Positions 41,964-59,016 of a DNA stretch of 64,000 nt are shown in pieces. The notes under the pieces were generated by a model, which saw nothing but the letters and a program-made list of their open reading frames with translations, had not been told where the DNA came from and searched no databases. Location: NCBI RefSeq assembly GCF_009469695.1, contig NZ_SSSR01000001.1, positions 186,001-250,000 of the forward strand, read 5' to 3'. Position 1 is the first letter of the stretch, and the number at the start of each line of letters is the position of its first letter. The stretch comes from Propionivibrio limicola. Its GTDB lineage: Bacteria > Pseudomonadota > Gammaproteobacteria > Burkholderiales > Rhodocyclaceae. A program made the translations under genes and the position numbers.

Positions 41964-43796
41964 TCATAAGCAGACGAAACTGGTTTCCGTCTCGATAGAG
42001 CCTTCGCCGAGGTAGCGCGCAATCTGCGGATACGGACAGAGTGGGCGCGTCCTACCTTCGGGCCACGTAGGATTGGTTTCGCTGTTTTCTCTGACCGGTC
42101 GAGTAGAAGCCACGATGCGTTGCGGGGCGATGCCTTTCTCAACCCAATCGACGATGGCGGTCACCATGTCGAACTTGTCAGCCGCCGGCCCACCATAGGA
42201 ATGCAGCATGCCGGGAACAACGAACAGCCGGACGAATTCCGCCCGATTACGGTGATTTTTTGCCAGCGCCTCGTACCAGCGGATCGTGTCATTGACCGAG
42301 AAAACCGGATCGGCGGTGCCGTGATAAACAATCATCTTTGCGCCGCGCTGACGAAATGCCGCCAGATCGTCTGGGTGCGGCGGCGTGTATTCGTCATAGG
42401 GCGCCTCCGCGTAGCCGTTGCCCGTGGCAAAGATTTTCAGCGCATCGGCGCCTTCGCCATTCATGCGAAAACCCATGACGTAGTCGAAGATCGTTGTCCC
42501 CTGACCGGTAAGAACATCCGGAGATTGCGGCGGATTCGAAAACATGAACGCCATCCCCGGGCCGGTCAGCGTCATGATCCGGCTGGTCGGATTGCTGGCG
42601 GATGCCGGGCCCTGGGCATTCGCAAAATCGCCCATCTGCCATTGCCGCCAGCCAAGCGCTCGCATGCCGGGGTCGAATGGCCATTCGGCGTAAAGCGCGT
42701 TCCCGTGCCGGTCTTTCGGCCCCTGCATCATTTTGTCGAGCGTGTTTTTCTTCGCCGCCGTCAGGCAATTGGTTTCCAGCGCCGACGAGCAGGTCGGCAC
42801 ATCGTCCTTCAACGAAAAAGCCTGACGACACGCTTGGATGTCGAACACCAGACCATCGTCGAGTCCATCGAGAGCATCGCAGCGCTCCAGAACCCTGTTG
42901 GCGACGAGGTCCATGTCCGCTTGGGAAAAACTGCGCGAGATATCGGCCTTGCCATCAACGAGCGGCGCAATGGCTGCCATCGCCTGCGCATTCCAGATCG
43001 CGGCCAGCACCGCTTTCGGCAGGTTGAACGCCGGCGGACCGGAAACGATACCGTCGAACAACGCCGGATAGCGCGCCGCCGTAACCATGCCGACACGCCC
43101 GCCGTTTGAGGTGCCGACCATGTACGAGCGATCTGGCGCTTTTCCGTAGGCCGCTGCGATCAACTTTTTGGCCATCGGCGTCACGACAGCTACGTAGCCG
43201 TGGGCGTTTTCCGTGCGCGCCTGCGGATCGATCCCGAACACTTGCTGCCGGATGGCGGGAGCGACGGAAGTATTGGCACTACCGTCATGCCCGGAATCAG
43301 TCGTGACCACGGCAAAGCCGCGCTGCAACGCCGTATCGACGGGACTGCCGCCCAGCGTTCGTCCGTAGGCCTGAACCATCGGTACGGCCAACGAGCCCTC
43401 CACGCCACCGTTAGGCTGGAAAAACAGGCGGCCGTTCCAGTCCTTCGGCAAGCTCATCTCGAAACGGATGGCATAGCCTTGCCCGTCGACAGGACTCGTG
43501 CGCTCGTTCATGCGCCCGCGCACGTAGCAGTGCTCGGGCAATTGGTAGGCCACGCCGTCGATGCTGACCTGCTTGCCGTGCGGGATCGTCTCGGCGGAAA
43601 GCATACGCAGGCTGGTGTGCGAGAAATCTAGCAATTCGGCACATTTCTCACGCACCGCACCAGACGCCACCGTGAGTTGCGGCACGGCCGGTTCGGCGCC
43701 GGCGCCGGCGGGCGGTCGCCCAGCGCATCCTCCGACAAACGTACAGAGCAATGCGCCAGCGGCCACGACCAGCGTTTTATTCCTGTTTTTTTGCAT
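41964..43796 (-). CDS. tannase/feruloyl esterase family lipoprotein
   Basis: A 610-residue exported esterase. The N-terminus is a lipoprotein signal with lipobox VGGC (Cys24), so it should be anchored in the outer membrane or periplasm. The serine nucleophile is Ser230 in GTSNGGR, an aspartate lies in YHGTADPVF and the histidine in PGMLHSYGG (His532). Family members cleave gallate or ferulate esters. Here the two cysteines that usually flank the serine and histidine (CS and HC) are threonine and serine, so the usual disulfide is absent. AGGAGG lies five bases before the ATG at 43796. Confidence 0.9.
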   Translation of the reverse strand: MQKNRNKTLVVAAGALLCTFVGGCAGRPPAGAGAEPAVPQLTVASGAVREKCAELLDFSHTSLRMLSAETIPHGKQVSIDGVAYQLPEHCYVRGRMNERTSPVDGQGYAIRFEMSLPKDWNGRLFFQPNGGVEGSLAVPMVQAYGRTLGGSPVDTALQRGFAVVTTDSGHDGSANTSVAPAIRQQVFGIDPQARTENAHGYVAVVTPMAKKLIAAAYGKAPDRSYMVGTSNGGRVGMVTAARYPALFDGIVSGPPAFNLPKAVLAAIWNAQAMAAIAPLVDGKADISRSFSQADMDLVANRVLERCDALDGLDDGLVFDIQACRQAFSLKDDVPTCSSALETNCLTAAKKNTLDKMMQGPKDRHGNALYAEWPFDPGMRALGWRQWQMGDFANAQGPASASNPTSRIMTLTGPGMAFMFSNPPQSPDVLTGQGTTIFDYVMGFRMNGEGADALKIFATGNGYAEAPYDEYTPPHPDDLAAFRQRGAKMIVYHGTADPVFSVNDTIRWYEALAKNHRNRAEFVRLFVVPGMLHSYGGPAADKFDMVTAIVDWVEKGIAPQRIVASTRPVRENSETNPTWPEGRTRPLCPYPQIARYLGEGSIETETSFVCL

Positions 43797-46498: not shown

Positions 46499-47437
46499 GT
46501 GAAAATTTGCATATTGGGCGCAGGCGCCTTGGGTTGCTCGATCGGCGGCGTGCTGGCCATGGGCGGTTCGGATGTGATCCTGATTGACCGCAATCAGCCG
46601 CACGTCGATGCCATCAACGGCGCAGGCCTGAAGATGCGCATCGGCGACGAAGAGAAAACCGTCAAGGTCAAAGCCTACACCAGCCCGGCCGGGCTTGAGC
46701 CGGTCGACCTCGTGGTCATCCTCGTCAAATCGTTTGCCACGCGGGCGGCCATCGAATCGGCACGCAATCTGGTCGGCCCGGACACGCTGGTCATGTCGAT
46801 CCAGAACGGGCTGGGGCATGAGGAAATCCTCGCCGAGGTCGTCGGCCGCGAACACGTACTGGCCGGCAAGACCTACGTCGGCGGCGTTTTCCTCGAACCG
46901 GGCCGCATCATCTCCGGCTACAAGGGCAAGCACACCTACATCGGCGAACTCGATGGCCGGCTGACGCCGCGCCTGCAGGCCGTCGTCGGCGAGTTCAACA
47001 AGGCCGATCTATTGACCACGGCCAGCACCAACATCATGGGCACCATGTGGGACAAGCTGATGGTCAACGTCGCCGCCGGCGCGCTGTGCGGCATCACGCG
47101 GCTGCCCTATGGCTGGCTGTACAAGATTCCCGAAATCGAGGAAGCCGGCGTGGCGGCGGTGGCCGAAGCCATCGCCGTGGCCAAGGCCAACCACATCAGG
47201 CTGACATCGGAAGAACCCAAGTACTACTGGGATCTGGCGGCCGAAGGGCTGCCCGCCGACTTCAAGACTTCCATGCTGCAAAGCCTGGAAAAGGGGCAGA
47301 TGACCGAGATCGATTTCATCAACGGCGCCGTCGTCCGCTGGGGCGAGCGTTCCGGTATCCCGACGCCGGTCAACAGGACGCTCGTCGCCTGCATCAAGGG
47401 CATCGAAAACTGGATCGTCAGTTTCGGCAACCAATAA
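46499..47437 (+). CDS. ketopantoate reductase-like (PanE family) oxidoreductase
   Basis: A 312-residue NADP-dependent reductase of the PanE/ApbA fold. The Rossmann loop is ICILGAGALGCSIGG at the N-terminus, with SIQNGLGHEE near residue 100 and the C-terminal domain with the lysine in KLMVNVAAGALCGI near residue 185. PanE reduces ketopantoate, but family members in catabolic clusters act on other 2-oxo acids. The GTG at 46499 has AAGGAG six bases before it, which fixes the start. It opens a run of catabolic genes on the plus strand, followed by a TRAP binding protein. Confidence 0.88.
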   Translation: MKICILGAGALGCSIGGVLAMGGSDVILIDRNQPHVDAINGAGLKMRIGDEEKTVKVKAYTSPAGLEPVDLVVILVKSFATRAAIESARNLVGPDTLVMSIQNGLGHEEILAEVVGREHVLAGKTYVGGVFLEPGRIISGYKGKHTYIGELDGRLTPRLQAVVGEFNKADLLTTASTNIMGTMWDKLMVNVAAGALCGITRLPYGWLYKIPEIEEAGVAAVAEAIAVAKANHIRLTSEEPKYYWDLAAEGLPADFKTSMLQSLEKGQMTEIDFINGAVVRWGERSGIPTPVNRTLVACIKGIENWIVSFGNQ

Positions 47438-47572
47438 CACAACACGCCGAAACGGCGCGGGGGCGCACACGCGTAACAAGAGTAACGAGATTCGTCAGGA
47501 CAGGGCTTTCCCGGTCATCGAATGCGGAGATTCCGCGCAATGCTTCAAGTCTTTTTTCAACAGGAGGTTCAA

Positions 47573-48580
47573 ATGCATCTGAAGAAGAAAATCGGTCTGG
47601 CAGTTGCCGCAGCGTGCTGCATGATGATGGTCGGCGGGGCGCAAGCGGAGATTCGCGAGCATTCCTTCCGTTTCTCGACGACGAACCCGAAAGGCCACCC
47701 GATCCCGGCCGGCGGTGAAAAATTCGGCGAACTGCTCGCCAAGAAGAGCGGCGGCAAGATGACCGTCAAGCAATTCCCGGGCGGCGTGCTCGGCGGCGAC
47801 GTGCAGGTCCTCTCCGCCGTGCAGGGCGGCACCATCGACCTGACCTCGATGAACGCCGGCATCCTGCAGGGCCAGATCAAGGAATTCGCGATCGTCGACC
47901 TGCCCTTCCTCTTCGCCAACGGCAAGGAAGCCGACGCCGTACTCGACGGCCCGGTCGGCCAGAAGATGGCCGCGCTGATGCCGGCCAAGGGCATGATCAA
48001 CCTCGCCTACTTCGACCTTGGCTTCCGCCAGCTGACCAACAGCAAGAAGCCGGTCAAGACGGCAGACGACATCCCCGGTTTGAAGCTGCGCGTCGTCCAG
48101 TCGCCGACCTACATCGACACCTGGACCGCGCTCGGCGCCAACGCCGTCCCGATGCCGATCACCGAGGTCTACACCGGCATGGAACAAAAGATGATCGACG
48201 GCCAGGAGAACCCGTTCTCCGTAATCGAGATCAACAAGTTCTACGAAGTACAAAAGTACCTGACGGTGACCAACCACATGTACAACCCGCAAGCCTTCTT
48301 CATGAGCAAGAAGTCGTGGGACAAGCTCAACGCCGACGAGCAGAAGGTCGTCATGGAAGCGGCCAAGGAAGCCGCCGTCTGGCAACGCCAGTTCTCGCGT
48401 GACTCGCAAGACAAGGCGCTGGCCAACCTGAAGAAGACGATGGAAGTGAGCGAACTGACGCCGGCCGAAGTGGCCAAGCTGCGCGCCAAGGTCAAGCCGG
48501 TGATCGACAAGTACAGCACCACGATCGGCGCCGACTTTACCAAGGAATTCCTCGCCGAGATCGAGAAGGTCCGCAAGTAA
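47573..48580 (+). CDS. TRAP transporter solute-binding protein DctP (copy 2)
   Basis: A 335-residue periplasmic TRAP receptor with a signal peptide ending AQA/EIRE (about residue 25). The core matches DctP: FRFSTTNPKGHPIPAGGEKFGELL, VLGGDVQVLSAVQGG and the ligand region LRVVQSPTYIDTWTALGANAVPMP. It resembles the receptor at 60.2 kb much more than copy 1 (shared GQENPFSVIE and VQKYLTVTNH). AGGAGG lies six bases before the ATG at 47573. A strong terminator follows. No permease genes are nearby. Confidence 0.93.
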   Translation: MHLKKKIGLAVAAACCMMMVGGAQAEIREHSFRFSTTNPKGHPIPAGGEKFGELLAKKSGGKMTVKQFPGGVLGGDVQVLSAVQGGTIDLTSMNAGILQGQIKEFAIVDLPFLFANGKEADAVLDGPVGQKMAALMPAKGMINLAYFDLGFRQLTNSKKPVKTADDIPGLKLRVVQSPTYIDTWTALGANAVPMPITEVYTGMEQKMIDGQENPFSVIEINKFYEVQKYLTVTNHMYNPQAFFMSKKSWDKLNADEQKVVMEAAKEAAVWQRQFSRDSQDKALANLKKTMEVSELTPAEVAKLRAKVKPVIDKYSTTIGADFTKEFLAEIEKVRK

Positions 48581-48617
48581 GCATAATGCGTTCGGCTGAG
48601 TCAGCCCGATAGTTTGG

Positions 48618-48672
48618 GCTCCGGTGACTCTATGCGGCGACCTCCTAGCGCCGCATGCCGGAGCTGTTTTTA
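48618..48672 (+). terminator. intrinsic terminator after DctP copy 2
   Basis: A nested hairpin: GCTCCGG pairs with CCGGAGC around ATGCGGCG and CGCCGCAT, followed by TGTTTTT on the plus strand. It lies about 40 bases after the stop and before the VOC gene. Confidence 0.9.
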
Positions 48673-48727
48673 GACCCGTGACAACCAGATTGGCCTGACC
48701 GGGCTAGAGGAAGAAGAGGAAGCAAAA

Positions 48728-49120
48728 ATGGCCTACACGAAAAAAGCGTACGTCGAACATGTCGCGATCCGCGTCAGGGATATCGACTGGCACATCCGCT
48801 TCTTTCGCGACGTGCTCGGCATGACGGTGAAGGAAGTGCATGGATCGGAAGAAGCACCGATCAGAGCCTGGACGATCGGCGGCATGCAATTCAACCTCGA
48901 TCAGGATTTTCAGCGCCCGGACGGGCTGCTCGATCACATCGGCCTCATGGTCGAGGACCTCGAAGCCGTACTGCGCGAGGCGCAAGGCTGGGGCATCAAG
49001 GAAGGGCCGATGGGGCGCAACTGGCTTCAATTGCCGGAGGGCCTGATGCTCGAGATTAACCAAGCACATGGCAACGCGGTAGCGGAAGCGCTTGCCGTCC
49101 AGCCACAACCGAAACCGTAA
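48728..49120 (+). CDS. VOC (glyoxalase-fold) protein
   Basis: A 130-residue single-domain vicinal-oxygen-chelate protein. Metal ligands fit the family: His11 (VEHVAIR), His70 (LLDHIGLM) and Glu109 (LMLEIN). A metal-dependent isomerase, lyase or dioxygenase-type enzyme is possible. It has few residues beyond the fold, so the reaction cannot be predicted. It begins the run VOC-MaoC-CaiB-AroE-AroQ-citryl-CoA lyase on the plus strand, with 20-base spacing to MaoC. Confidence 0.9.
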   Translation: MAYTKKAYVEHVAIRVRDIDWHIRFFRDVLGMTVKEVHGSEEAPIRAWTIGGMQFNLDQDFQRPDGLLDHIGLMVEDLEAVLREAQGWGIKEGPMGRNWLQLPEGLMLEINQAHGNAVAEALAVQPQPKP

Positions 49121-49140
49121 CGATTTCAAGTGAGACCGCA

Positions 49141-49596
49141 ATGACCAAGAAAGAACTGTATTTCGACGAAATCAAGGTGGGCGACAAAGGCATCAGCCCG
49201 ACCTACACCTTCACCGAAGCACGCATCAACGCCTACGCCGAACTGACCGGTGATTTCACCCCGGTGCACGTCGACGAGGAATACGCGAAAAAGACACCGT
49301 TCGGCACGCGCGTCGCACACGGCCTATTCGGCCTGTCGGTGGCCGACGGCCTGAAGACACAAAGCGAATACTGCTTCCAGCCGGGCATGTCGCTGGGCTG
49401 GGAATGGAGCTTCGTTCTGCCGATCAAAATCGGCGACACGTGTCATATCGAGTTTGTGGTGGCAAGCACGCGCGAGTCGAAAAGCCGCCCGGGCTGGGGC
49501 ATCGTCGTCGTGCCGGTGGAACTCATCAACCAGCGCGGCGAAGTCGTGCAGAAGGGCGAGCATCGCGTCATGGTGCCGTGCCGTCCGAAGGCATAA
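49141..49596 (+). CDS. MaoC-like hotdog-fold hydratase
   Basis: A 151-residue hotdog protein with the hydratase motif (GDFTPVHVD: Asp38, His43), the catalytic pair of MaoC enoyl-CoA hydratases, plus the following HGLFGLSVADGL helix. It would add water to, or remove it from, a CoA thioester. Its neighbours are VOC (20 bases upstream) and a CoA-transferase (20 bases downstream), which suggests that the transferase activates the substrate that MaoC hydrates. Confidence 0.92.
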   Translation: MTKKELYFDEIKVGDKGISPTYTFTEARINAYAELTGDFTPVHVDEEYAKKTPFGTRVAHGLFGLSVADGLKTQSEYCFQPGMSLGWEWSFVLPIKIGDTCHIEFVVASTRESKSRPGWGIVVVPVELINQRGEVVQKGEHRVMVPCRPKA

Positions 49597-49616
49597 GCCA
49601 AAATCAGAAGTCCATC

Positions 49617-50861
49617 ATGAAAACCCAACCTCTTCCGCTATCCGGTATTCGTGTCATCGATTACAGCCACTTTCTGGCCGGCCCCTATGTGTCGCGGTGT
49701 CTGGCGGCGCTCGGCGCCGAAGTAATCAAGGTCGAGCGCCCGACGGAAGGGGAAGCCGGCCGGGCGCATCCCTATTTCATCAAGGGACAGAGCGGCTATT
49801 ACCTGCAGCAGAACATGGGCAAGGAAGGTCTCCGCATCGATATGAAAGACCCGCGCGGTCTCGCGTTGATGCAGAAACTGGTGGCATCCGCCGACATCTT
49901 CGTCGAGAACTACCGGCCGGGAACGCTCAAGAAGCTTGGGCTGGGCTACGAAGAGCTGTCGCAGATCAATCCCGGGCTCATCTACTGCTCCATTTCGGCC
50001 TACGGGCACACCGGGCCGGATTCGCACCGCCCGGGATATGGACTGATTGCGGAAGCCAAGAGCGGCATCATGTCGATGATCGGCTCGTCCGGCGAAGCGC
50101 CGCCGCTTCTGCGCATCGCGCTGGGCGACGTGCATACCGGGGCGAACGCCGTCGGCGCCATCTGCGCCGCGTTATTCGGGCGAGTCAAATCCGGGCGCGG
50201 CCAGCATATCGACATGGCGTTGTACGACAGCCTTGTGTCGATGCACGAGTACGCGGTGCAGTGCTACACGCTGTCCGGCGGCAAGGAAATCCCCGTGCAG
50301 ACGGGGCACGACCTGCCGACATCGACGCTCTACGGTGTGTTCACGGCAACTGACGGCTACGTGGTCATCGCCGCGCAGGTCGATGAGGCCTGGAAACGCT
50401 TCGCCAAGCGGGTGGGCGGCGAGGCCCTGGCGGCCGATCGCCGCCTCCATTCCGCAGCGGGGCGCAACGCGCACCGTCTGAAAATTCTGGCGATCGTGCG
50501 CCCGTGGGTGGCACAGCGCCGCGTCGCCGAGTGTCTGGCAGCGCTGGAGGAAATCGATGTACCCGCCGCCAAGGTGCAGAACATCGAAGAAGTGCTTGCC
50601 GATCCGCAGATCAAAGCGCGCGGCATGCTGGTCGAGCAGGAACATCCGGTGCTCGGGAAGGTGCAGTTGGCCAACCTTCCGTATCACTTCTCCGAATGCG
50701 ATACCACGTTAAAGACAGCGGCTCCGTTGCTGGGCCAGCATAACCGCGCCATTGCCGCCCGTTTGGGCTACAGCTCGTCGGAAATCGATGCACTGGTCCG
50801 CGATGGCGTTTTGTACGCCGAAGCGGCCGTCGCAGAAATCACCGAGAGTGCCACGAAATAA
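49617..50861 (+). CDS. CaiB/BaiF (family III) CoA-transferase
   Basis: A 414-residue family III CoA-transferase. The N-terminal IRVIDYSHFLAGPYVSRCLAALGAEVIKVE is diagnostic, and the catalytic aspartate is Asp171 in ALGDVHTGANA. These enzymes move CoA from one acid to another (for example formyl-CoA:oxalate, carnitine or itaconate types). It starts at 49617, 20 bases after MaoC, and ends 14 bases before aroE. Activation of an organic acid for the MaoC and lyase enzymes in the same run is a reasonable inference. Confidence 0.93.
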   Translation: MKTQPLPLSGIRVIDYSHFLAGPYVSRCLAALGAEVIKVERPTEGEAGRAHPYFIKGQSGYYLQQNMGKEGLRIDMKDPRGLALMQKLVASADIFVENYRPGTLKKLGLGYEELSQINPGLIYCSISAYGHTGPDSHRPGYGLIAEAKSGIMSMIGSSGEAPPLLRIALGDVHTGANAVGAICAALFGRVKSGRGQHIDMALYDSLVSMHEYAVQCYTLSGGKEIPVQTGHDLPTSTLYGVFTATDGYVVIAAQVDEAWKRFAKRVGGEALAADRRLHSAAGRNAHRLKILAIVRPWVAQRRVAECLAALEEIDVPAAKVQNIEEVLADPQIKARGMLVEQEHPVLGKVQLANLPYHFSECDTTLKTAAPLLGQHNRAIAARLGYSSSEIDALVRDGVLYAEAAVAEITESATK

Positions 50862-50875
50862 TTGGAGCTTTGACA

Positions 50876-51712
50876 ATGACTGACAAGTACGCCGTGATCG
50901 GCAACCCCATCGGCCACACCAAGTCGCCGCTGATTCACATGACGTTCGCCGAGCAGACCGGCCAGGACATCGAGTACACGGCCATCGAAGGCTCGCTCGG
51001 CGGCTTCCGCGAAGCGGCCGAGGCGTTCCGCGCGGCCGGCGGCTGCGGCATGAACGTCACCGCGCCGTTCAAGCTCGACGCCTTCGCCTACGCGACCGAC
51101 CTGACCGAACAGGCGCAGCTCGCCGGCGCCGTCAATGCGCTGAAGTTCGCCGACGGCAAGGTGTACGCGCAGAACTTCGACGGCATCGGCCTGACCCGCG
51201 ACATCGTGCATAACCTCGGCTACCCGATGCGCGGCAAGCGCGTCCTGCTGCTCGGCGCCGGTGGGGCCGCGCGCGGCGCGATGCTGCCGTTCCTCAAGGA
51301 GAAGCCCGCCCAGTTGGTGCTGGTCAACCGGACCGTCAGCAAGGCCAAGGAATTGTTCGAGCAATTTTCTCCCTATGCCGGCGATACCGATTTTTCATTC
51401 TGCGCGTATCCCGAACTCGGCGACTTGTCCGTTCAGTTCGACATGGTCATCAACGCCACCTCGGCCAGCCTGCGCGGCGAGTTGCCGCCGGTGCATACCG
51501 GCGTCTTCAAGCCGGGATGTCTGGCCTATGAACTGGCTTACGGCAAGGGGCTGACACCGTTCCTGCGGTTGGCCCAAGGCGCGGGTGCACAAAAACTCGC
51601 CGACGGCGTCGGCATGCTCGTCGAGCAGGCCGCCGAAGCCTTCGAGTGGTGGCGCAGCGTGCGCCCGGAAACCGCACCGATGATTGCCACCCTGACGGTT
51701 CCGCTGGTTTGA
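50876..51712 (+). CDS. aroE: shikimate (or quinate/shikimate) dehydrogenase AroE-like
   Basis: A 278-residue shikimate dehydrogenase. Substrate-binding and catalytic residues are intact: SPLIH near residue 17, Lys66 in VTAPFKLDAF, Asn87 and Asp102 in QNFDGIGL. The NADP loop is GAGGAARGAM with NRT after it, which favours NADP. It interconverts shikimate and 3-dehydroshikimate. The ATG at 50876 has GGAG nine bases upstream. Its place between a CoA-transferase and dehydroquinase suggests a catabolic copy, perhaps one of several in the genome. Confidence 0.92.
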   Translation: MTDKYAVIGNPIGHTKSPLIHMTFAEQTGQDIEYTAIEGSLGGFREAAEAFRAAGGCGMNVTAPFKLDAFAYATDLTEQAQLAGAVNALKFADGKVYAQNFDGIGLTRDIVHNLGYPMRGKRVLLLGAGGAARGAMLPFLKEKPAQLVLVNRTVSKAKELFEQFSPYAGDTDFSFCAYPELGDLSVQFDMVINATSASLRGELPPVHTGVFKPGCLAYELAYGKGLTPFLRLAQGAGAQKLADGVGMLVEQAAEAFEWWRSVRPETAPMIATLTVPLV

Positions 51713-51772
51713 GCGGGACGTTTGAATAGTGTTTCTTGATCGTCTGTTTAATTTTTTCAAAGGAGTGAAATC

Positions 51773-52219
51773 ATGAAAGTTCTGATGCTGCACGGGATCA
51801 ACCACAACATGTTCGGCAAACGCGACCCGAAGCAATACGGCACGATCACGCTCGACGAAATCGACGCCACGCTGCGTGAAGTCGGCGAGGAACTCGGTTG
51901 CGAAATCGAGAGCTTCCAGACCAACGACGAAGGCGCGATGTGCCTGCGCATTCACCAGGGCTTCCTCGACGGTGTCGACGCCGTGCTGATCAACGCCGGC
52001 GCCTGGACGCACTACAGCTACGGCATCCGCGACGCACTGGCCATCCTGACCTGCCCGATCGTCGAACTGCACATGTCGAACATCCATTCCCGCGAGAAGT
52101 TCCGCCACTACTCGTGCTTCGGCGAAATCGTCAATGGCTCGATCTGCGGCTTCGGCGTCGACAGCTACACGCTGGCCCTGCGCGCCGCCGTATCGGCCGC
52201 CAAGGCGAAGAAGGCCTGA
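51773..52219 (+). CDS. aroQ: type II 3-dehydroquinate dehydratase (divergent)
   Basis: A 148-residue type II dehydroquinase, which interconverts 3-dehydroquinate and 3-dehydroshikimate. The catalytic and binding residues are retained: Asn10, Arg17, Tyr22, Asn74, His80, His100, Arg107 and Arg111 (NAGAWTHYS, ELHMSNIHSREKFRH and ICGFGVDSY segments). The opening motif is unusual (LHGINHNMFGKRDP instead of LNGPNLN-LG-R-P), so it belongs to a divergent branch. It follows aroE by 60 bases with its own ribosome site (AAAGGAG). Confidence 0.9.
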   Translation: MKVLMLHGINHNMFGKRDPKQYGTITLDEIDATLREVGEELGCEIESFQTNDEGAMCLRIHQGFLDGVDAVLINAGAWTHYSYGIRDALAILTCPIVELHMSNIHSREKFRHYSCFGEIVNGSICGFGVDSYTLALRAAVSAAKAKKA

Positions 52220-52247
52220 CAGGTCAAAAACGGGGCAGACAAATGCT

Positions 52248-52338
52248 TCACCACCAAGACACCAAGAGCACAAAGATTCACCAAGAAAACAGAGCTTTTA
52301 CTTGGTGCTCTCTTGGTGTCTTGGTGCCTTGGTGGTTC
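52248..52338. repeat. palindromic CACCAAG repeat, copy A
   Basis: The 184 bases between aroQ and the lyase gene contain a long imperfect palindrome. Its left arm is made of CACCAAG-type units, and its right arm of the reverse units CTTGGTG. A second copy with the same ordering lies at 54796-54877. Confidence 0.8.
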
Positions 52339-52403
52339 GCGTTTTTCGCTGTCTGATTACCAGCGTTGTCTTTCCCCTGCTGTTTCAAAAGGAGTTACGC
52401 ATC

Positions 52404-53228
52404 ATGAGTCAAATGACCAATGAAGAAAAAGTGAAGGCGGCGTCGGACTGGTGGTCGACGAGCATCATCGACGTTCAGCGAGGCGCAATCGGTATTCGCG
52501 GCTATGCCATTCAGGATCTGATTGGCAAGGTCAGCTTCCCCGAGATGATCTGGCTGATGTTGAAAGGCGATTTGCCGTCGCGCGCCCAGGCGCAACTCCT
52601 CGAAGCAGCGATGGTTCCCTGCGTTGACCACGGGCCGCAGGCTCCCTCGTGCGCCATCGCCCGCATGGCGGTGACGTGCGGCTTGCCGGTCAATGGCGCC
52701 CTGGCTTCGGCCATCAACGCGCTCGACGACATTCACGGCGGGCCGGCGCAACGGTGCATGGAGATTTACAACGAAATCGATGCCGAAGCCGGGGCGGATG
52801 GCGACCTGCTGGCCGCAACGGCCGCGGTGCTGGCGCGCAGCGAGAAATACATGCCGGGCTTTGGCCACCGCTGGCATCCGATCGACCCGCGCGTCGCGCC
52901 GCTGTTTTCGCTGGTCGACAAGGCCGTTGCCGACGGCACGATCTCCGGTCGCTTCGCCGCCATTGGCCGCGCCGTGGAAGTGGTGCTCAAGGAGAAAAAA
53001 GGCCGCACGATCCCGATGAACATCGACGGCGTCACCGCCGCCATCTTCTGCGAACTCGGCTTCCCGCCCGAACTCGGACGGGGGATTTTCATCCTTGCCC
53101 GGTCGGTCGGCCTCTTAGCGCATGCCTGGGAACAGAAGCAGGCAGGAGTGCGCATCAAGGGGCCGCTGCCGAAGGAAATCCCTTATACCTACACGGGGCC
53201 GGCGCCACGGGAATTGCCCGAACGGTAA
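52404..53228 (+). CDS. citryl-CoA lyase-like protein (citrate synthase fold)
   Basis: A 274-residue short member of the citrate synthase fold, like the citryl-CoA lyases. The catalytic triad is retained: His111 (DDIHGGPAQ), His155 (PGFGHRWH) and Asp208 (NIDGVTAA). It lacks the N-terminal domain of full-length citrate synthase (about 430 residues; one lies at 61.5 kb). It would split a 3-hydroxy-acyl-CoA such as citryl-CoA to acetyl-CoA and an oxo acid, or run in reverse. AAAAGGAG precedes the ATG at 52404. It is the last gene of the run. Confidence 0.88.
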   Translation: MSQMTNEEKVKAASDWWSTSIIDVQRGAIGIRGYAIQDLIGKVSFPEMIWLMLKGDLPSRAQAQLLEAAMVPCVDHGPQAPSCAIARMAVTCGLPVNGALASAINALDDIHGGPAQRCMEIYNEIDAEAGADGDLLAATAAVLARSEKYMPGFGHRWHPIDPRVAPLFSLVDKAVADGTISGRFAAIGRAVEVVLKEKKGRTIPMNIDGVTAAIFCELGFPPELGRGIFILARSVGLLAHAWEQKQAGVRIKGPLPKEIPYTYTGPAPRELPER

Positions 53229-53355: not shown

Positions 53356-54780
53356 TCAAAAATGCAGCGGCCGCTTGTCGCAGGCCAGCGCGGCTTCGTG
53401 CACAACTTCCGACAGCGTCGGATGGGCATGGCAGATACGGGCGAGATCCTCGCTCGCGGCGCCGAATTCCATGGCGACGACGCCTTCTGAAATCAGCTCG
53501 GAGGCGTTCGCGCCGATGATGTGCACGCCGAGGATGCGGTCGGTCGCCGCATCGGCCAACATCTTGACGAAACCGGTCGTCTCGCCAACGCCGAGCGCCC
53601 GGCCGTTGGCGGCGAACGGAATCTTGCCGACCTTGTAGGCCACACCCTCTTCCTTGAGCTGCTGCTCGGTCTTGCCAACCCAAGCGATTTCGGGGCTGGT
53701 GTAGAGCACCCAAGGGATCGTGTCGAAGTTGCAATGCCCGGCCTGACCGGCCATCAGTTCAGCGACCATCACCGCTTCTTCCATCGCCTTGTGCGCCAGC
53801 ATCGGGCCGCGCACGACGTCGCCGACCGCCCAGACACCCGGCAGGTTGGTGCGGCAGTGGTCGTCAACGGCGATGCGGCCACGTTCGTCGATTTGCAGCC
53901 CGACAGTCTCGGCATTGAGGCCCTCGGTATTCGGCACGCGCCCGATCGAAACGATCAATCGGTCGGCCTCCAGTTGTTTTGCCGCGCCGTCCTTGGCGGT
54001 GTAAGCCACCGAAACGCCCTTCTTGGTCGTCTTGACTTCGCCTATGCTGACGCCGAGTTCGATCGCCAACCCCTGCTTGGCGAACACCTTGGCGGCTTCC
54101 TTGGCGACGTCGGTATCGGCCGCGCCGAGAAAATCAGGCAAGGCTTCGAGGATCGCCACTTCGGCGCCGAGACGGCTCCAGACGCTGCCCATTTCGAGGC
54201 CGATCACACCGGCACCGATGATCGCCAGCTTCTTGGGCACGGCGTCGATGTCGAGCGCCCCAACGTTGTCGCAAACGCGGACGTTGTCGACCGGCACGCC
54301 GGGCAAATGCCGCGCCCGCGAGCCGGTGGCGACGAGGACCTGTTTGGCCTCGACCACCTCCTCGCCCACCTTCACCTGCCAGCCGTTCTCCGTCTGGCCG
54401 ACGAAGGCGCCGTGGCCGTTGAGCAGCGTGACCTTGTTCTTCTTGAACAGCCCCTTGATGCCGGTAGTGAGCTGGCCGACGATCGTGTTCTTGCGCTTGA
54501 CCATCGTCGGCACGTCGATTTTCGGCGTATCAACGAGAATCCCTTGCGCGGCGAAACCATGCGCGGCTTCGGCAAACAGGTGCGAGGTATGGAGCAGCGC
54601 CTTCGACGGGATGCACCCCACGTTCAGACAGGTGCCGCCCAGACGCGGCTCGCCCTTCGGATCAGCATAGGGATTGGACTCGCAACAAGCGACCGAAAAG
54701 CCGAGCTGGGCCGCACGGATAGCACCCACGTAGCCGCCGGGACCACCACCGATGACCAGCACATCAAAATTCTTTGCCAT
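53356..54780 (-). CDS. lpdA: dihydrolipoyl dehydrogenase LpdA (E3)
   Basis: The FAD-dependent E3 subunit that reoxidises lipoyl groups of the 2-oxoglutarate dehydrogenase complex. The protein starts [20 protein letters not shown] and has the redox disulfide [17 protein letters not shown] second nucleotide loop ([13 protein letters not shown]) lies mid-protein, and the closing [15 protein letters not shown] gives the catalytic His/Glu pair. It is 474 residues, the normal length. The ATG at 54780 has AGGAG six bases before it. It is third of sucA-odhB-lpdA, separated from odhB by a palindromic repeat. Confidence 0.97.
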
Positions 54781-54795
54781 ACAAACTCCTAAATC

Positions 54796-54877
54796 TTCAC
54801 CACCAAGACACCAAGGGCACCAAGATTCACCAAGAAATACTTGGTGCAACTTTGTGTTCTTGGTGCCTTGGTGGTTT
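54796..54877. repeat. palindromic CACCAAG repeat, copy B
   Basis: An imperfect palindrome of CACCAAG units and their reverse complement, with the same order of units as copy A. It sits between odhB and lpdA, which are otherwise one operon. Confidence 0.8.
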
Positions 54878-54889
54878 GCATTTTTTTCA

Positions 54890-56146
54890 TTAAACGCCGA
54901 GCAGCAGACGAGTCGGATCTTCCAGCGCTTCCTTCATGGCGACCAGGCCGAGGACGGCTTCGCGGCCGTCGATGATGCGGTGGTCGTAGGACATCGCCAG
55001 GTAGTTCATCGGGCGGATGACGATCTGGCCGTCTTCGACGACCGGCCGGTCCTTGGTCGCATGCACGCCGAGGATCGCCGATTGCGGCGGGTTGATGATC
55101 GGCGTCGACAGCATCGAGCCGAACACGCCGCCGTTCGAAATCGAGAACGTGCCGCCGGCAAGGTCTTCCATCGACAGCTTGCCGTCCTTGGCCTTCTGCC
55201 CGAATTCAGCGATCTTCTTCTCGATGTCGGCAAAGCTCATCTGGTCGGCATCGCGCAGGATCGGCACGACCAGACCGCGCGGACTGCCGACGGCCACGCC
55301 GATGTCGATATAGCCGTGATAGACGATGTCGTTGCCGTCGACCGAGGCGTTGAGGATCGGGTATTTCTGCAGCGCGGCCACGGCGGCCTTGACGAAGAAG
55401 GCCATGAAGCCGAGGCGCACGCCGTGTGCCTTCTCGAACTTCTCGCCGTACAGCTTGCGCAGCTCCATCACCGGCGCCATGTTGACCTCGTTGAAAGTGG
55501 TCAGGATGGCGTTGGTCGATTGCGACTGGATGAGCCGTTCGGCGACGCGGGCGCGCAGGCGGGACATCGGCACGCGCTGCTCCGGACGGTTGGCCAGCGG
55601 CACGGGCACCGGGGGCGCTGGCGGCAGCGTTGGCGAAACAGCCGCTACCGTCGCCGGAGCAGCAACGGTCGCCGGCGCTGCGGCTGGTTTGACGGCCGCC
55701 AGCGCATCGGCCTTGGTCACCCGCCCGCCGCGACCGGTGCCGGGCACCTCATCCACGGCAATCCCCTTTTCATCGAGGATCTTGCGCGCCGCCGGCATGG
55801 CGACGCCTTTGGCGTCCGGCACAGCCGGAGCAGGTGCTGCACTTGGCTGCGGCGTGGACTTGGCAACCGGCGCCGCAGATTCGGCGCTGGGCGATTCGGT
55901 GGCCGTCGCGTCTGTATCGATGCGGGCGATCACCTCCTCGGCCACGACGGTCGCGCCGTTGGCCTTGATGATTTCAACCAGCACGCCGTTCGCCGGCGCC
56001 GGCAGTTCGAGCACGACCTTGTCGGTTTCGATGTCGATCAGGTTCTCGTTGCGTTTGACGGCCTCGCCAGCTTTCCGGTACCAGGACAGCAGGGTGGCTT
56101 CGGCGATGGACTCCGAGAGTTGGGGAACTTTGACGTCGATCAGCAT
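54890..56146 (-). CDS. odhB: 2-oxoglutarate dehydrogenase E2, dihydrolipoyl succinyltransferase
   Basis: The core acyltransferase of the 2-oxoglutarate dehydrogenase complex. A lipoyl domain occupies residues 1-75 with the modified lysine in [12 protein letters not shown] Pro/Ala linker follows, then the E3-binding domain ([14 protein letters not shown], residues about 120-155), a second linker and the catalytic domain with the HxxxD motif ([13 protein letters not shown]) near the C-terminus. The 418-residue length is usual. It is 15 bases after sucA, and AGGA precedes the ATG at 56146. Confidence 0.97.
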
Positions 56147-56161
56147 GATCAGTGACTCCGA

Positions 56162-59011
56162 TTAAGCGGGTTTGTACGGTCCGATGGCACCCAGAGCGGA
56201 CTCGATCAGCGCTTTCTTTTGCGCGTTGTGTTTGCTCAGATAGCCTACCGCCGGCGAGGGCGACGCGGGGCGCGAAACCAGCAACAGGTGCTGGTTTTTC
56301 TTCAACGACCGGTCGAGGTGTTGGCGCGAGGCGATCCAGTACCAGGCGCCCTGATTGCGCGGCTCATCCTGGCACCAGAGGATTTCGGTGGCGTTCGGGT
56401 ATTTGGCCAGTTCCTCGTCGAACGCCTTTTGCGGGAACGGGTAAAGTTGCTCGATCCGCGCAATCGTGATGTGGTCGATGTTCTTCTCGCGACGGGCCGC
56501 CAAGAGATCGAAGTAGATCTTGCCGGAGCAGAAGACGAGGCGCGTCACCTTCTTCGGGTCGATCGGATCGACTTCGCCGATCAGCGGCTGGAAGCGCCCC
56601 TTGGCCAGCTCGTCAAGCGTCGACACGGCGTCCTTGTGGCGCAGCAGCGATTTCGGCGTGAAGACGATCAGCGGCTTGCGCTGCTTGCGGATGGCCTGCC
56701 GGCGCAGCATGTGGAAGACCTGCGCCGGCGTCGTCGGCTGGCAGACTTCCATGTTCATCTCGGCGCAAAGCTGCATGAAACGCTCGATGCGCGCCGACGA
56801 GTGTTCCGGCCCCTGCCCTTCGTAACCATGCGGCAGCAGCAGCACAAGCCCACACGCCTTGCCCCACTTTGTTTCGCCCGAGGCGATGAACTGGTCGATC
56901 ACCACCTGCGCGGTATTGGCAAAGTCGCCGAACTGCGCTTCCCAGACAACCAGATCGAACGGGTTCGAGGTCGCGTAGCCGTATTCGAAGGCGAGCACGG
57001 CTTCTTCCGACAACACTGAATCGAAGCACTGGAACGACGCCTGCTTCTCCTGCAAATGGGCCAGCGGGTAATGGACGCGGTGCTCGTAAATATCGCAACC
57101 CTGATCGTGCACCGAAGCGTGCCGATGGAAGAAGGTGCCGCGACACACATCCTCGCCCGACAGGCGCACGCCGTGCCCGGAAACGAGCAGCGAGGCATAG
57201 GCGAGGTTCTCGGCCATTCCCCAATCGAAGGAGAGGTCACCCTGTCCCATCCGGCGGCGGTCGTCGATGATCTTGCGCACGCGGCTGTGCAGCGTGAAAT
57301 CGTCCGGAATCGCCGTCAGGCGCTCGGCCAGGCGCTTGATCTCCTTCAACGGCACCGTCGTATCGCAGTTCTCGATGTATTTCTTGGGCAGGAACGGCGT
57401 CCAGTCGATCAGCAACGGGTTCGTGTAGCCGGCGAGCACCGGGTTGTAGAGCAGTTCGCCGCGGTCGAGGTGATCGCGGTAGCTTTCGATCATGTCGTCG
57501 GGGCCGCTTGCCGGAAGTACGCCCTCGGCCACCAGCCGGTCGGCGTACAGCTTGCGCGTGCCGGGATGCTCGGCGATGCGGCGGTACATCGAGGGCTGCG
57601 TGACCATCGGCTCGTCCTGCTCGTTGTGACCCAAGCGGCGGAAGCAGACGATATCGACAACGGTGTCCTTCTTGAATTCCTGCCGGAACTCGAAAGCAAG
57701 GCGGATGGCCAGCGCCACGGCTTCCGGGTCGTCACCATTGACGTGGAAGATCGGCGCCTCGGCCATCTTGAACACGTCGGTGCAGTAGAGCGAGGAGCGC
57801 AGATCGCGCGGGTCGGACGTCGTAAAGCCGATCTGGTTATTGACGACGATGTGCACCGTGCCGCCGGTCCCGTAGCCGCGCGTTTGCGCGAAGTTGAGCA
57901 TCTCCTGATTGACGCCCTGACCGGCCACGGCGGCGTCGCCGTGGATGAGGACCGGCAATACTTTTTCCTGCGCGCCTTCGCCGCGTCGGTGTTGGCGGGA
58001 ATAAACGGCACCGGCGACGACCGGATTGACGATTTCCAGATGCGACGGATTGAACGCGAGCGTCAGCTGGCACGGGCCGCCCGGCGTCGACACGGAAGAG
58101 GAGTAACCAAGGTGGTATTTGACGTCGCCAGACGCAAGTTCCTGCGCCTTTTTGCCTTCGAACTCCTCGAACAGCATTGAGGGTTCCTTGCCCAGCGTAT
58201 TGACCAGCACGTTCAGACGACCGCGGTGCGCCATACCGATCACGATGTCATCGACTCCGGCGCCGCCGGCAACGTTGACCAACTCATCGAGCGCCACGAT
58301 CAGCGATTCGCCGCCTTCGAGCGAGAAACGCTTCTGGCCGACGTAACGCGTGTGCAGGTAACGCTCCAGCGTCTCGGCGGCAGTCAGCCGTTCCAGAAAG
58401 CGCAGCTTCTGCGCCGGCATATAGGTCGCCTTGGCGCGGATCGGTTCCAGCCGCGCCTGCAGCCAGCGCCCTTCGGTGATGGTATTGATGTACATGTACT
58501 CGACACCGATCGAGCCGCAGTAGGTTTCCCGCAGGGCGTCGAGAATCTGGCCGAAGCTGGAGTGTTCCGGCACGCCGAGGAAGGAGCCGACGTTGAACAC
58601 CGCGTTGGCGTCGGCATCGGAAAAACCATAGAACGACGGCTCAAGCTCGTTAATTTTCGGCCGCGTTTGCCGCTTGAGCGGATCGAGGTCGGCCCAGCGC
58701 ACGCCGAGCGTCCGGTAGGCCCGGATCATCTGCAGCACGCGCACCTGTTTCTTGTCGTTCACCGGTTGGGCGGCGACTGCCCGGTAGCCGCCCTGCTTCG
58801 CCTGTTCGGCAAAGGCGTGAATCACCGGCTGGTGCGGCACATCGCGCGCGACGGGCGCGGGCAACTGGGCGAGCTTGTCGAAATAGGCCCGCCATTCATC
58901 AGGCACCGAAGTGGGGTCGCCGAGATAGTTTTCGTAGAGTTCCTCGATGAACGGCGCGTTGCCGCCGAAGAGATACGAGGTCGAGAAAAGCTGATCGAGC
59001 TGAGTCGTCAT
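56162..59011 (-). CDS. sucA: 2-oxoglutarate dehydrogenase E1 component
   Basis: The thiamin-diphosphate E1 of the 2-oxoglutarate dehydrogenase complex, which decarboxylates 2-oxoglutarate. Of about 950 residues, the N-terminal segment (SYLFGGNAPFIEELYENYL) is the family E2-binding part. GMAHRGRLNVLVN, HGDAAVAGQGVNQE and VNNQIGFTT mark the TPP domain. The C-terminal transketolase-like half is complete. ATG at 59011 is taken; a GTG at 59020 overlaps the stop of the oxidoreductase gene upstream. It heads sucA-odhB-lpdA. Confidence 0.97.
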   Translation of the reverse strand: MTTQLDQLFSTSYLFGGNAPFIEELYENYLGDPTSVPDEWRAYFDKLAQLPAPVARDVPHQPVIHAFAEQAKQGGYRAVAAQPVNDKKQVRVLQMIRAYRTLGVRWADLDPLKRQTRPKINELEPSFYGFSDADANAVFNVGSFLGVPEHSSFGQILDALRETYCGSIGVEYMYINTITEGRWLQARLEPIRAKATYMPAQKLRFLERLTAAETLERYLHTRYVGQKRFSLEGGESLIVALDELVNVAGGAGVDDIVIGMAHRGRLNVLVNTLGKEPSMLFEEFEGKKAQELASGDVKYHLGYSSSVSTPGGPCQLTLAFNPSHLEIVNPVVAGAVYSRQHRRGEGAQEKVLPVLIHGDAAVAGQGVNQEMLNFAQTRGYGTGGTVHIVVNNQIGFTTSDPRDLRSSLYCTDVFKMAEAPIFHVNGDDPEAVALAIRLAFEFRQEFKKDTVVDIVCFRRLGHNEQDEPMVTQPSMYRRIAEHPGTRKLYADRLVAEGVLPASGPDDMIESYRDHLDRGELLYNPVLAGYTNPLLIDWTPFLPKKYIENCDTTVPLKEIKRLAERLTAIPDDFTLHSRVRKIIDDRRRMGQGDLSFDWGMAENLAYASLLVSGHGVRLSGEDVCRGTFFHRHASVHDQGCDIYEHRVHYPLAHLQEKQASFQCFDSVLSEEAVLAFEYGYATSNPFDLVVWEAQFGDFANTAQVVIDQFIASGETKWGKACGLVLLLPHGYEGQGPEHSSARIERFMQLCAEMNMEVCQPTTPAQVFHMLRRQAIRKQRKPLIVFTPKSLLRHKDAVSTLDELAKGRFQPLIGEVDPIDPKKVTRLVFCSGKIYFDLLAARREKNIDHITIARIEQLYPFPQKAFDEELAKYPNATEILWCQDEPRNQGAWYWIASRQHLDRSLKKNQHLLLVSRPASPSPAVGYLSKHNAQKKALIESALGAIGPYKPA

Positions 59012-59016
59012 GTCGG

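Follow-up and report, generated by a model that had tools for sequence, protein, structure and literature searches.

The window analysed here, a 64,000-nucleotide stretch of a Propionivibrio limicola contig (59.9% G+C), contains at 46499-53228 a run of eight open genes, all on the plus strand, which by its gene content very probably serves hydroaromatic catabolism. The run is composite, with an operon (module B: PanE, VOC, MaoC, the family III CoA-transferase CoAT3, AroE and AroQ, together with a TRAP receptor) joined to one gene, a citryl-CoA-lyase homologue, of a second set (module A: a thiamine diphosphate (ThDP) enzyme, a TIM barrel, an acylating aldehyde dehydrogenase and a lyase) whose remainder lies elsewhere in the genome. 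Tentatively, the two modules are read as an undescribed, oxygen-independent route for quinate and shikimate that uses two unrelated lyases and as a second undescribed operon for a related ring acid in the form of its CoA thioester; this operon would accompany the route in some Burkholderiales and Rhodocyclaceae and has counterparts on plasmids of Burkholderiales and Bradyrhizobium. The route is likely new and of known logic, that of ThDP-dependent opening of a hydroaromatic dione; the gene association is strong and the chemistry is inferred from it. The title of the species description of P. limicola reportedly names a hydroaromatic-fermenting bacterium. To our knowledge, the growth of fermenting bacteria on quinate or shikimate without an aromatic stage has been an open question since specialised hydroaromatic fermenters were isolated.

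The association is seen most directly among relatives of the window lyase. A scan of 84,980 species genomes gave 83 relatives, and 80 loci were kept, in which genes were called by codon usage; a caller based on open-reading-frame length and GC was dropped (many antisense frames in GC-rich loci). In the following, C stands for a contig of the P. limicola genome (G000), G for a genome and L for a locus, and c2, c3 and c4 are the clusters of ThDP enzymes, acylating aldehyde dehydrogenases and TIM barrels. By strict clustering, a ThDP enzyme of about 588 amino acids (c2) is present in 30 of the 80 loci, the acylating aldehyde dehydrogenase (c3; SauS-like, 487 bits in L021, below the cut-off of 600) in 26 and the TIM barrel (c4, PF01261) in 25. 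These genes are mostly adjacent to the lyase or near it, and many loci add AroE homologues, AroD or AroQ, and TRAP or branched-chain ABC transporters. For the linkage counts, ThDP genes were assigned by loose homology (33 loci, as compared with 30 by strict clustering); some loci are contig fragments, and the 80 loci are related to each other, so that no p-value is claimed. On this basis any AroE, AroD or AroQ homologue is present in 27/33 ThDP loci versus 3/47 loci without a ThDP gene (L004, L012 and L019), and in 16/20 versus 1/35 when loci of at least 15 kb only are counted. The c4 barrel is present in 26/33 versus 0/47. Tct-type transporter genes are distributed in the opposite way, 2/33 versus 21/47, and a family III CoA-transferase homologue is present in 41 of the 47 loci without a ThDP gene; the identity of Tct and TRAP genes was verified on one example per cluster. 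The counts thus divide the lyase family into a hydroaromatic-linked set and a set often linked to tricarboxylate transporters. The second group (47/80 loci, e.g. L049-L053 in alphaproteobacteria) mostly has another family III CoA-transferase and is presumably tricarboxylate-using.

In the lyase tree (78 rows; sequences shorter than 230 residues left out, those of Azoarcus sp. KH32C and of the window added) the window lyase pairs with that of L003, to which it is 78% identical, within a supported clade of 16 rows. The L003 gene itself lies between the acylating aldehyde dehydrogenase and the ThDP enzyme, and 14 of the 15 other rows of the clade are ThDP-linked, L022 only via a fragment at a contig end. 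A connection with hydroaromatic acids, as suggested by an earlier first-pass annotation of the window, is thereby borne out by both linkage and phylogeny. Judged by the same evidence, the window lyase belongs to module A and not to the operon, and it is proposed to be a homocitryl-CoA lyase rather than a citryl-CoA lyase; its best PDB match is the citryl-CoA lyase 6hxp. QuiC-like pairs or halves are present in 10/33 ThDP loci and PcaU/PobR-like regulators in some loci, all below cut-off. L023 and L024 have a dehydrogenase of the pyrroloquinoline-quinone-dependent glucose/quinate/shikimate family (448 and 473 bits, cut-off 832.65), and IolG-like Gfo/Idh/MocA dehydrogenases, also below cut-off, are found in L014, L160, L161, L207 and L209. 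Two AroE-family genes are present in 4/30 strict ThDP loci and at most one in the other 26. Plasmid records with a citryl-CoA-lyase relative number 29, of which 2 were fetched; on that of Azoarcus sp. KH32C the order is AroD-AroE-ThDP-lyase-CoA-transferase-barrel-HPPD-like-IclR, where HPPD stands for 4-hydroxyphenylpyruvate dioxygenase.

The P. limicola genome (3.1 Mb, 56 contigs, 97.9% complete) carries the rest of module A on other contigs, and for that reason the decisive genes were invisible to the first-pass annotation. C9 carries the ThDP enzyme (86% identity with the L003 enzyme), with the acylating aldehyde dehydrogenase (61%) just before it and a TIM barrel, cut by the contig end, after it. 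A second barrel on C20 (81%) stands beside a TRAP receptor that is 81% identical to the one in the window. The two barrel copies (C9:67492-67902 and C20:9575-10393) have 95% identical DNA over 411 bases, a repeat that probably caused the assembly to break where C9 ends. C28 and C56 carry further AroE-like genes, and C54 a more distant barrel (49%). Over 182,559 bases taken from the genome, some of them overlapping, G+C is 58.6%, versus a listed value of 61.6% for P. limicola. A homologue of 3-hydroxy-3-methylglutaryl-CoA (HMG-CoA) lyase lies on the contig of the window itself, at C11:256630-257562, 6.6 kb past the window end, and adjoins genes for 2-oxoacid:acceptor oxidoreductase subunits (alpha 576.9 bits, cut-off 482.75; beta under its cut-off).

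Co-occurrence was followed in 59 genomes, namely P. limicola, 27 congeners, 7 genomes of the family and 24 of the order. Thirteen of them, all in the genus, carry the ThDP gene, and the TIM barrel is found in exactly these genomes, a pattern that suggests a shared substrate. An acylating aldehyde dehydrogenase (at least 61% identical) is found in 12 of these 13, the exception being G004 (86% complete); the G015 paralogue, at 43%, was left out of this count. The HMG-CoA-lyase homologue (at least 89% identical; paralogues of 37-45% elsewhere not counted) is found in 10/13 and the citryl-CoA lyase in 3/13 (P. limicola, G009 and G026), so that 11/13 have either lyase; the exceptions are G004 and G005, and in G005 the acylating aldehyde dehydrogenase is at contig ends. 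In nine of 12 congeners (G006, G010, G012, G017, G021, G023, G025, G026 and G027) the HMG-CoA-lyase homologue adjoins the acylating aldehyde dehydrogenase, in six it is visibly together with the ThDP enzyme, and in eight of the nine no citryl-CoA lyase was found. G026 has the order acylating aldehyde dehydrogenase - HMG-CoA-lyase homologue - citryl-CoA lyase - ThDP - barrel - AroE, and in G009 the citryl-CoA lyase alone occupies the lyase slot. Against the HMG-CoA lyase model NF004283 (cut-off 246) the homologues of G026 and G017 score 319 and 326 bits; the C11 protein, 90% identical to that of G017, is assigned by this identity. That one slot can be filled by lyases of two unrelated folds points to a single reaction type, in which a tertiary 3-hydroxyacyl-CoA would undergo retro-Claisen cleavage and release acetyl-CoA and a 2-oxo acid. 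Near module A in G023 and G027 (L218 and L220), beyond a PcaU-like regulator, are citrate lyase genes and an NADP-isocitrate dehydrogenase of the monomeric type (1322.7 and 1332 bits, cut-off 950). A variant cluster in G005 and G026 (L160 and L161) comprises an Asp/Glu racemase family protein, split transketolase N and C parts, a divergent ThDP enzyme (63%), a barrel, an AroE-like gene, a TRAP gene and an IolG-like gene, and is perhaps for another cyclitol acid.

The genes that precede the lyase in the window form a real, hydroaromatic-linked operon. The order PanE-(DctP)-VOC-MaoC-CoAT3-AroE-AroQ is conserved, with some gene losses, in 6/6 congeners that bear the MaoC gene and in 9/10 plasmid loci fetched (from 19 records with a CoAT3 relative; the tenth, from Janthinobacterium, is without it). 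PanE, VOC and MaoC are in that order in all six congener loci. A PanE homologue (74-80% identical) heads each of these operons, in L163 after the TRAP receptor. MaoC is the best conserved operon gene, at 93-95% in five congeners and 78% in G009. CoAT3 is 77-82% identical in five of the six, and its absence between AroE and MaoC in the sixth, G027 (L165), is either loss or an assembly fault; in the nine plasmid operons it is 64-71% identical. AroE is present in five of the six (missing in G009) and AroQ in four, the G027 contig ending before AroQ. A divergent LysR gene is at the head of the operon in all six congeners, with a TRAP receptor between LysR and PanE in G006, and in L162, L164 and L165 PanE and VOC are separated by a TRAP receptor.

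On the plasmids, of Caballeronia, Paraburkholderia, Burkholderia, Massilia, Variovorax and Bradyrhizobium, the five-gene core PanE-VOC-MaoC-CoAT3-AroE is kept, and seven of the nine also have AroQ, within the operon or a few kilobases further along (37% identical in Bradyrhizobium). L217 is the operon locus of Paraburkholderia phymatum STM815. Two plasmid operon loci also carry a Gfo/Idh/MocA dehydrogenase. In Massilia putida the neighbours of module B include a second AroE and a fusion of TIM-barrel/HPPD type with QuiC architecture, and in Burkholderia multivorans the operon adjoins the tricarballylate genes tcuAB. As tcuAB is annotated beside one plasmid operon only (3/9 operon records being unannotated), tricarballylate was rejected as the operon substrate. 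On the Janthinobacterium lividum plasmid (L210), a 63% CoAT3 homologue stands among polyketide/peptide-synthase-like genes, near an annotated shikimate dehydrogenase and a sugar phosphate isomerase.

Since PanE-VOC-MaoC recurs in nine plasmid and six congener loci, and in most of them CoAT3-AroE-AroQ comes next, the operon is more than a chance arrangement. This recurrence does not extend to the lyase: none of the 15 other loci (those of 6 congeners and 9 plasmids, in stretches of 11-20 kb, searched for this lyase type only) has a citryl-CoA lyase beside the operon, and these loci give no support to a supply of the lyase by the CoA-transferase and MaoC. The window MaoC is present in 7/59 genomes, all seven of which have the ThDP gene (7/13 ThDP carriers versus 0/46 others), and L014, L021, L033 and L035 have pieces of both modules side by side; L035 is the locus of a cultivated strain, Castellaniella defragrans DSM 12141. 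Module B probably processes or feeds in another hydroaromatic acid as its CoA thioester, with low confidence for the feeder role itself; our guess is a third ring acid that would be led, as CoA thioester, to dehydroshikimate or dehydroquinate.

From the families, linkage and co-occurrence observed, every substrate and the order of steps in the following route are inferred, and the route in this form (dehydroquinate, 3,4-dione, ring hydrolysis, homocitryl-CoA) is held with middling confidence. By a logic like that of inositol catabolism, module A would break down quinate and shikimate with no aromatic stage. An AroE-type dehydrogenase would convert quinate to 3-dehydroquinate, and shikimate would enter via dehydroshikimate, with AroQ or AroD acting as a hydratase. 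The xylose-isomerase-like TIM barrel would then strip the C5 hydroxyl to give 1-hydroxy-3,4-dioxocyclohexane-1-carboxylate; dehydration at C5 would have the regiochemistry of dehydroshikimate dehydratase, and the C1 hydroxyl would block aromatisation. The ThDP enzyme would hydrolyse the dione bond, yielding HO-C(COOH)(CH2-CHO)(CH2CH2COOH), and the aldehyde arm next to C1 would be turned into homocitryl-CoA by the acylating aldehyde dehydrogenase or, in other species, by an aldehyde dehydrogenase and a CoA-transferase. The lyase, a homologue of either citryl-CoA lyase or HMG-CoA lyase, would split homocitryl-CoA into acetyl-CoA and 2-oxoglutarate. Quinate and citrate both have a tertiary alcohol bearing a carboxylate. 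The electron count is balanced, since of the 28 electrons of quinate 8 would be in acetate and 16 in 2-oxoglutarate, and the 4 left correspond to two NAD-linked dehydrogenase steps with no carbon lost. In a fermenter, 2-oxoglutarate would be partly oxidised and partly carboxylated reductively, with citrate cleavage, and the predicted balance per quinate is 1.75 acetate, 1 propionate and 0.5 CO2 (a calculated figure). A CoA thioester, release of acetyl-CoA by the lyase homologue and no need of an aromatic intermediate, all foreseen by the first-pass annotation, are kept in this route as parts of the proposed chemistry.

Several observations weigh against this reading. In sequence comparisons, acetolactate synthase and glyoxylate carboligase come closest to the ThDP enzyme, and cyclohexane-1,2-dione hydrolase follows later; the best NCBIfam match of the enzyme is acetolactate synthase, below cut-off, and no IolD model is among the best 25 of 51 NCBIfam matches. 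In the fold search cyclohexane-1,2-dione hydrolase ranks 25th, preceded by glyoxylate carboligase and acetolactate synthase, and the model, with a mean confidence (pLDDT) of only 70.4, does not separate dione hydrolases from acetolactate synthases. The KH32C barrel is QuiC-N-like (38%) and not of c4, L030 and L031 have neither Aro genes nor a TIM barrel nearby, and the QuiC-like halves in 10/33 ThDP loci leave a protocatechuate branch possible there. In P. limicola itself the module A genes are scattered over contigs, and this genome and G026 hold both lyases, so that the exchange of lyases is not strict. CoAT3, MaoC, VOC and PanE fit nowhere in the module A route, and the operon of G027 is without CoAT3.

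The likeliest alternative concerns the TIM barrel. Its model (pLDDT 94.6) is closest in fold to IolI and Listeria Lmo2234, with 5HMQ at rank 5 and IolE from rank 34; 5HMQ is given as the dehydroshikimate dehydratase QuiC (PMC9324987). The c4 barrel of L021 has no NCBIfam model match at E 1e-10, whereas the c4 fold resembles QuiC. The barrel could be a dehydroshikimate dehydratase that leads quinate and shikimate to protocatechuate, with the ThDP enzyme, aldehyde dehydrogenase and lyase acting on another substrate, as the structural nearness to QuiC, the QuiC-like halves of the ten ThDP loci and the Massilia putida fusion would allow. This is unlikely, given that ThDP and TIM genes occupy the same set of genomes, that a separate QuiC-like pair is already present in those ten loci and that no ring-cleaving dioxygenase other than the HPPD-like QuiC-C halves is found among the family-scanned neighbouring genes (a scan of neighbourhoods, not exhaustive and not genome-wide for P. 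limicola). A dione might also arise through oxidation of the C4 hydroxyl by a second dehydrogenase, the lyase then giving acetyl-CoA and 4-hydroxy-2-oxoglutarate, the latter to be split into pyruvate and glyoxylate. The loci with two AroE-family genes, the extra Gfo/Idh/MocA genes of L014, L160 and L161, and KH32C, L030 and L031 as cases without c4 are consistent with it; it is quite unlikely in view of the dehydratase-type barrel in most ThDP loci, the single AroE-family gene at most in 26/30 and the recurrence of 2-oxoglutarate- or 2-oxoacid-using enzymes beside the genes.

For the lyase two further explanations were weighed. That it acts on citrate or a similar imported tricarboxylate, and stands by the operon by accident, would agree with the frequent CoA-transferase and Tct-type genes in loci without ThDP and with the dispersed repeat between AroQ and the window lyase; it is very unlikely, the window lyase being in the ThDP-linked clade next to L003 in a genome that has the ThDP module. 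Most unlikely is the single itaconate-type chain suggested by the first-pass annotation (thioester by the CoA-transferase, hydration by MaoC, cleavage by citryl-CoA lyase), which has in its favour the adjacency of the genes in the window, three active sites that look intact by eye and the tcuAB genes of Burkholderia multivorans, and against it the 15 operon loci that have no citryl-CoA lyase, the grouping of the lyase in relatives with the ThDP, acylating aldehyde dehydrogenase and TIM-barrel module, a MaoC protein far from an itaconate-type hydratase (56.7 bits versus the RipB/Ich cut-off of 340) and a lyase of citrate synthase fold, not of the CitE/RipC type.

The features of the run and of its surroundings are collected below. 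All eight genes are open, and Pfam and NCBIfam agree with the families that had been named from the sequence, weakly so for the VOC protein, which reaches 24.9 bits with TIGR03081 and 21.9 bits with the catechol 2,3-dioxygenase model TIGR03211, both far under cut-off.

Features of the run at 46499-53228 and of neighbouring regions in the window
Feature	Position	Strand	Remarks
PanE/ApbA (ketopantoate-reductase-family dehydrogenase)	46499..47437	+	GTG start; PF02558/PF08546; TIGR00745 239 bits, cut-off 141
DctP TRAP solute receptor	47573..48580	+	PF03480, TIGR00787; orphan, no DctQ/DctM in run
VOC-fold protein	48728..49120	+	PF00903 E 4.2e-6 (weak); weak similarity to methylmalonyl-CoA epimerase
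MaoC-fold hydratase	49141..49596	+	PF01575
CoAT3, family III (CaiB/BaiF) CoA-transferase	49617..50861	+	PF02515 387.6 bits
AroE shikimate dehydrogenase	50876..51712	+	NF001310 335.4 bits, above equivalog cut-off of 221
AroQ type II 3-dehydroquinate dehydratase	51773..52219	+	subfamily NF003805 193.7 bits, cut-off 146
Spacer of 184 bases with dispersed hairpin repeat	52220..52403	.	between module B and lyase
Citryl-CoA-lyase homologue, short citrate synthase fold	52404..53228	+	NF004864 407.5 bits, cut-off 261
LysR regulator	37084..38016	-	homologues (73-85%) divergent at head of six congener operons
Second TRAP receptor paralogue	38155..39135	-	member of the expanded orphan TRAP receptor family
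Acetyl-CoA hydrolase/CoA-transferase-like protein	39339..40928	-	FadX 397.6 bits, below cut-off 750
Tannase/feruloyl-esterase family protein	41964..43796	-	PF07519 379.8 bits; 2.7 kb upstream of run
Dihydrolipoamide dehydrogenase homologue (lpd)	53356..54849	-	named by eye and position
odhB	54890..56146		named by eye and position
sucA	56162..59020		NF006914 1310.5 bits, cut-off 764

Intergenic gaps along the run are, in order, 135, 147, 20, 20, 14, 60 and 184 bases. The tight spacing described earlier therefore applies from VOC to AroQ (14-60 bases) and ends before the lyase, where the gap holds the hairpin repeat. Copies of the repeat are at 52252-52334 and 54801-54873, with arms CTTGGTGNCTTGGTG; this sequence has 5 hits in the window at up to 2 mismatches versus 0.32 expected, and the RNA fold of the repeat has a z of -5.25. 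Catalytic residues of the lyase, CoA-transferase, MaoC, AroE and AroQ, said from the outset to be intact, do look so in a by-eye reading of the motifs, which we take to be H/H/D in the citrate synthase fold, the Asp of GD in the CoA-transferase, D..P.H in MaoC, K/D in AroE and R/Y/N/H in AroQ. AroQ scores 165.3 bits with the equivalog TIGR01088, slightly below its cut-off of 169.85. Canonical AroE copies in the genome are two, the window copy being 52% identical to that on C22, and AroQ copies are likewise two (69%, C32). The view of the window AroE and AroQ as mere biosynthetic copies was rejected because each has a second genomic copy, though either copy may be the biosynthetic one. No dehydroshikimate dehydratase is present in the run; the rest of the genome was not searched for QuiC itself.

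Genes around the run offer further associations. The 2-oxoglutarate dehydrogenase genes directly after it, on the opposite strand, would consume the proposed product, and in G009 (L167) the operon also adjoins homologues of the lpd, odhB and sucA genes and of gltA. The tannase-family protein has a homologue (43%) beside module A in the congener G012 (L153), and such an esterase could free quinate from chlorogenate-like esters. Homologues (44-45%) of the acetyl-CoA hydrolase/CoA-transferase-like protein are found in the lyase loci L004 and L008, and a protein annotated as of this family is near module B in Caballeronia (L207). The LysR homologue in the window sits 8.5 kb upstream of the operon and not directly at its head. 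The orphan TRAP receptor family is expanded in this genome, with members in the window at 38155-39135 (-), 47573-48580 (+) and 60242-61120 (-) and on C20, C22, C28 and C54; those on the four other contigs adjoin AroE-like or TIM-barrel genes, and on C28 two flank one AroE-like gene.

If the proposed route is true, a complete and testable gene list for non-aromatic degradation of quinate and shikimate would be at hand, the presence of a lyase of citrate synthase fold beside AroE and AroQ would be explained, a further means of opening hydroaromatic rings under anoxic conditions would be added, and annotations would be corrected for some homologues of citryl-CoA lyase, acetolactate synthase and shikimate dehydrogenase. 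Among the titles and abstract openings listed from the open-licence literature, none connects quinate with citryl-CoA lyase, homocitryl-CoA or a ThDP ring hydrolase, which does not imply absence from print.

Among known systems, inositol catabolism, with the dehydrogenase IolG, the dehydratase IolE and the ThDP ring hydrolase IolD, is the model for the proposed logic: oxidation of a cyclic polyol is followed by dehydration to a 1,2-dione on a xylose-isomerase-like TIM barrel, a ThDP enzyme then opens the ring, and in module A, too, a barrel of the IolE/IolI/QuiC type (by fold match) adjoins the ThDP enzyme. Unlike that system, module A has an acetolactate-synthase-like ThDP enzyme that is under every cut-off shown, would form CoA thioester products for a lyase, and includes AroE, AroQ or AroD. 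The cyclohexane-1,2-dione hydrolase pathway of Azoarcus 22Lin also uses a ThDP enzyme to open a hydroaromatic dione, and the module A enzyme is of the same superfamily (2pgn, 4d5e and 4d5g matched). In contrast, identity in the fold match is about 24-25%, the proposed substrate has a tertiary alcohol and a carboxylate, and an acyl-CoA stage and a lyase would follow. The set for conversion of quinate and shikimate to protocatechuate (QuiA, AroD/QuiB, AroE and QuiC) shares the entry enzymes, the extra AroE and AroQ copies and, in some clusters, the QuiC-like halves and PcaU/PobR-like regulators; it has no counterpart of the ThDP enzyme, acylating aldehyde dehydrogenase and lyase, and its dehydroshikimate dehydratase is not in the run. 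Itaconate degradation (Ict-Ich-Ccl or RipABC) has the same neighbouring families of CoA-transferase, MaoC hydratase and C-C lyase as the window, whereas the window MaoC is far below RipB/Ich, the lyase is of another fold and the genes are unlinked elsewhere. Of the two lyases, the alternative one resembles HMG-CoA lyase, with two congener proteins above the NF004283 cut-off, and differs in its place with the acylating aldehyde dehydrogenase and, visibly in six congeners, the ThDP enzyme. The window lyase shares its family (NF004864) and reaction type with the citryl-CoA lyase of the reductive citric acid cycle, whereas its clade and linkage suggest homocitryl-CoA derived from a hydroaromatic acid as the substrate.

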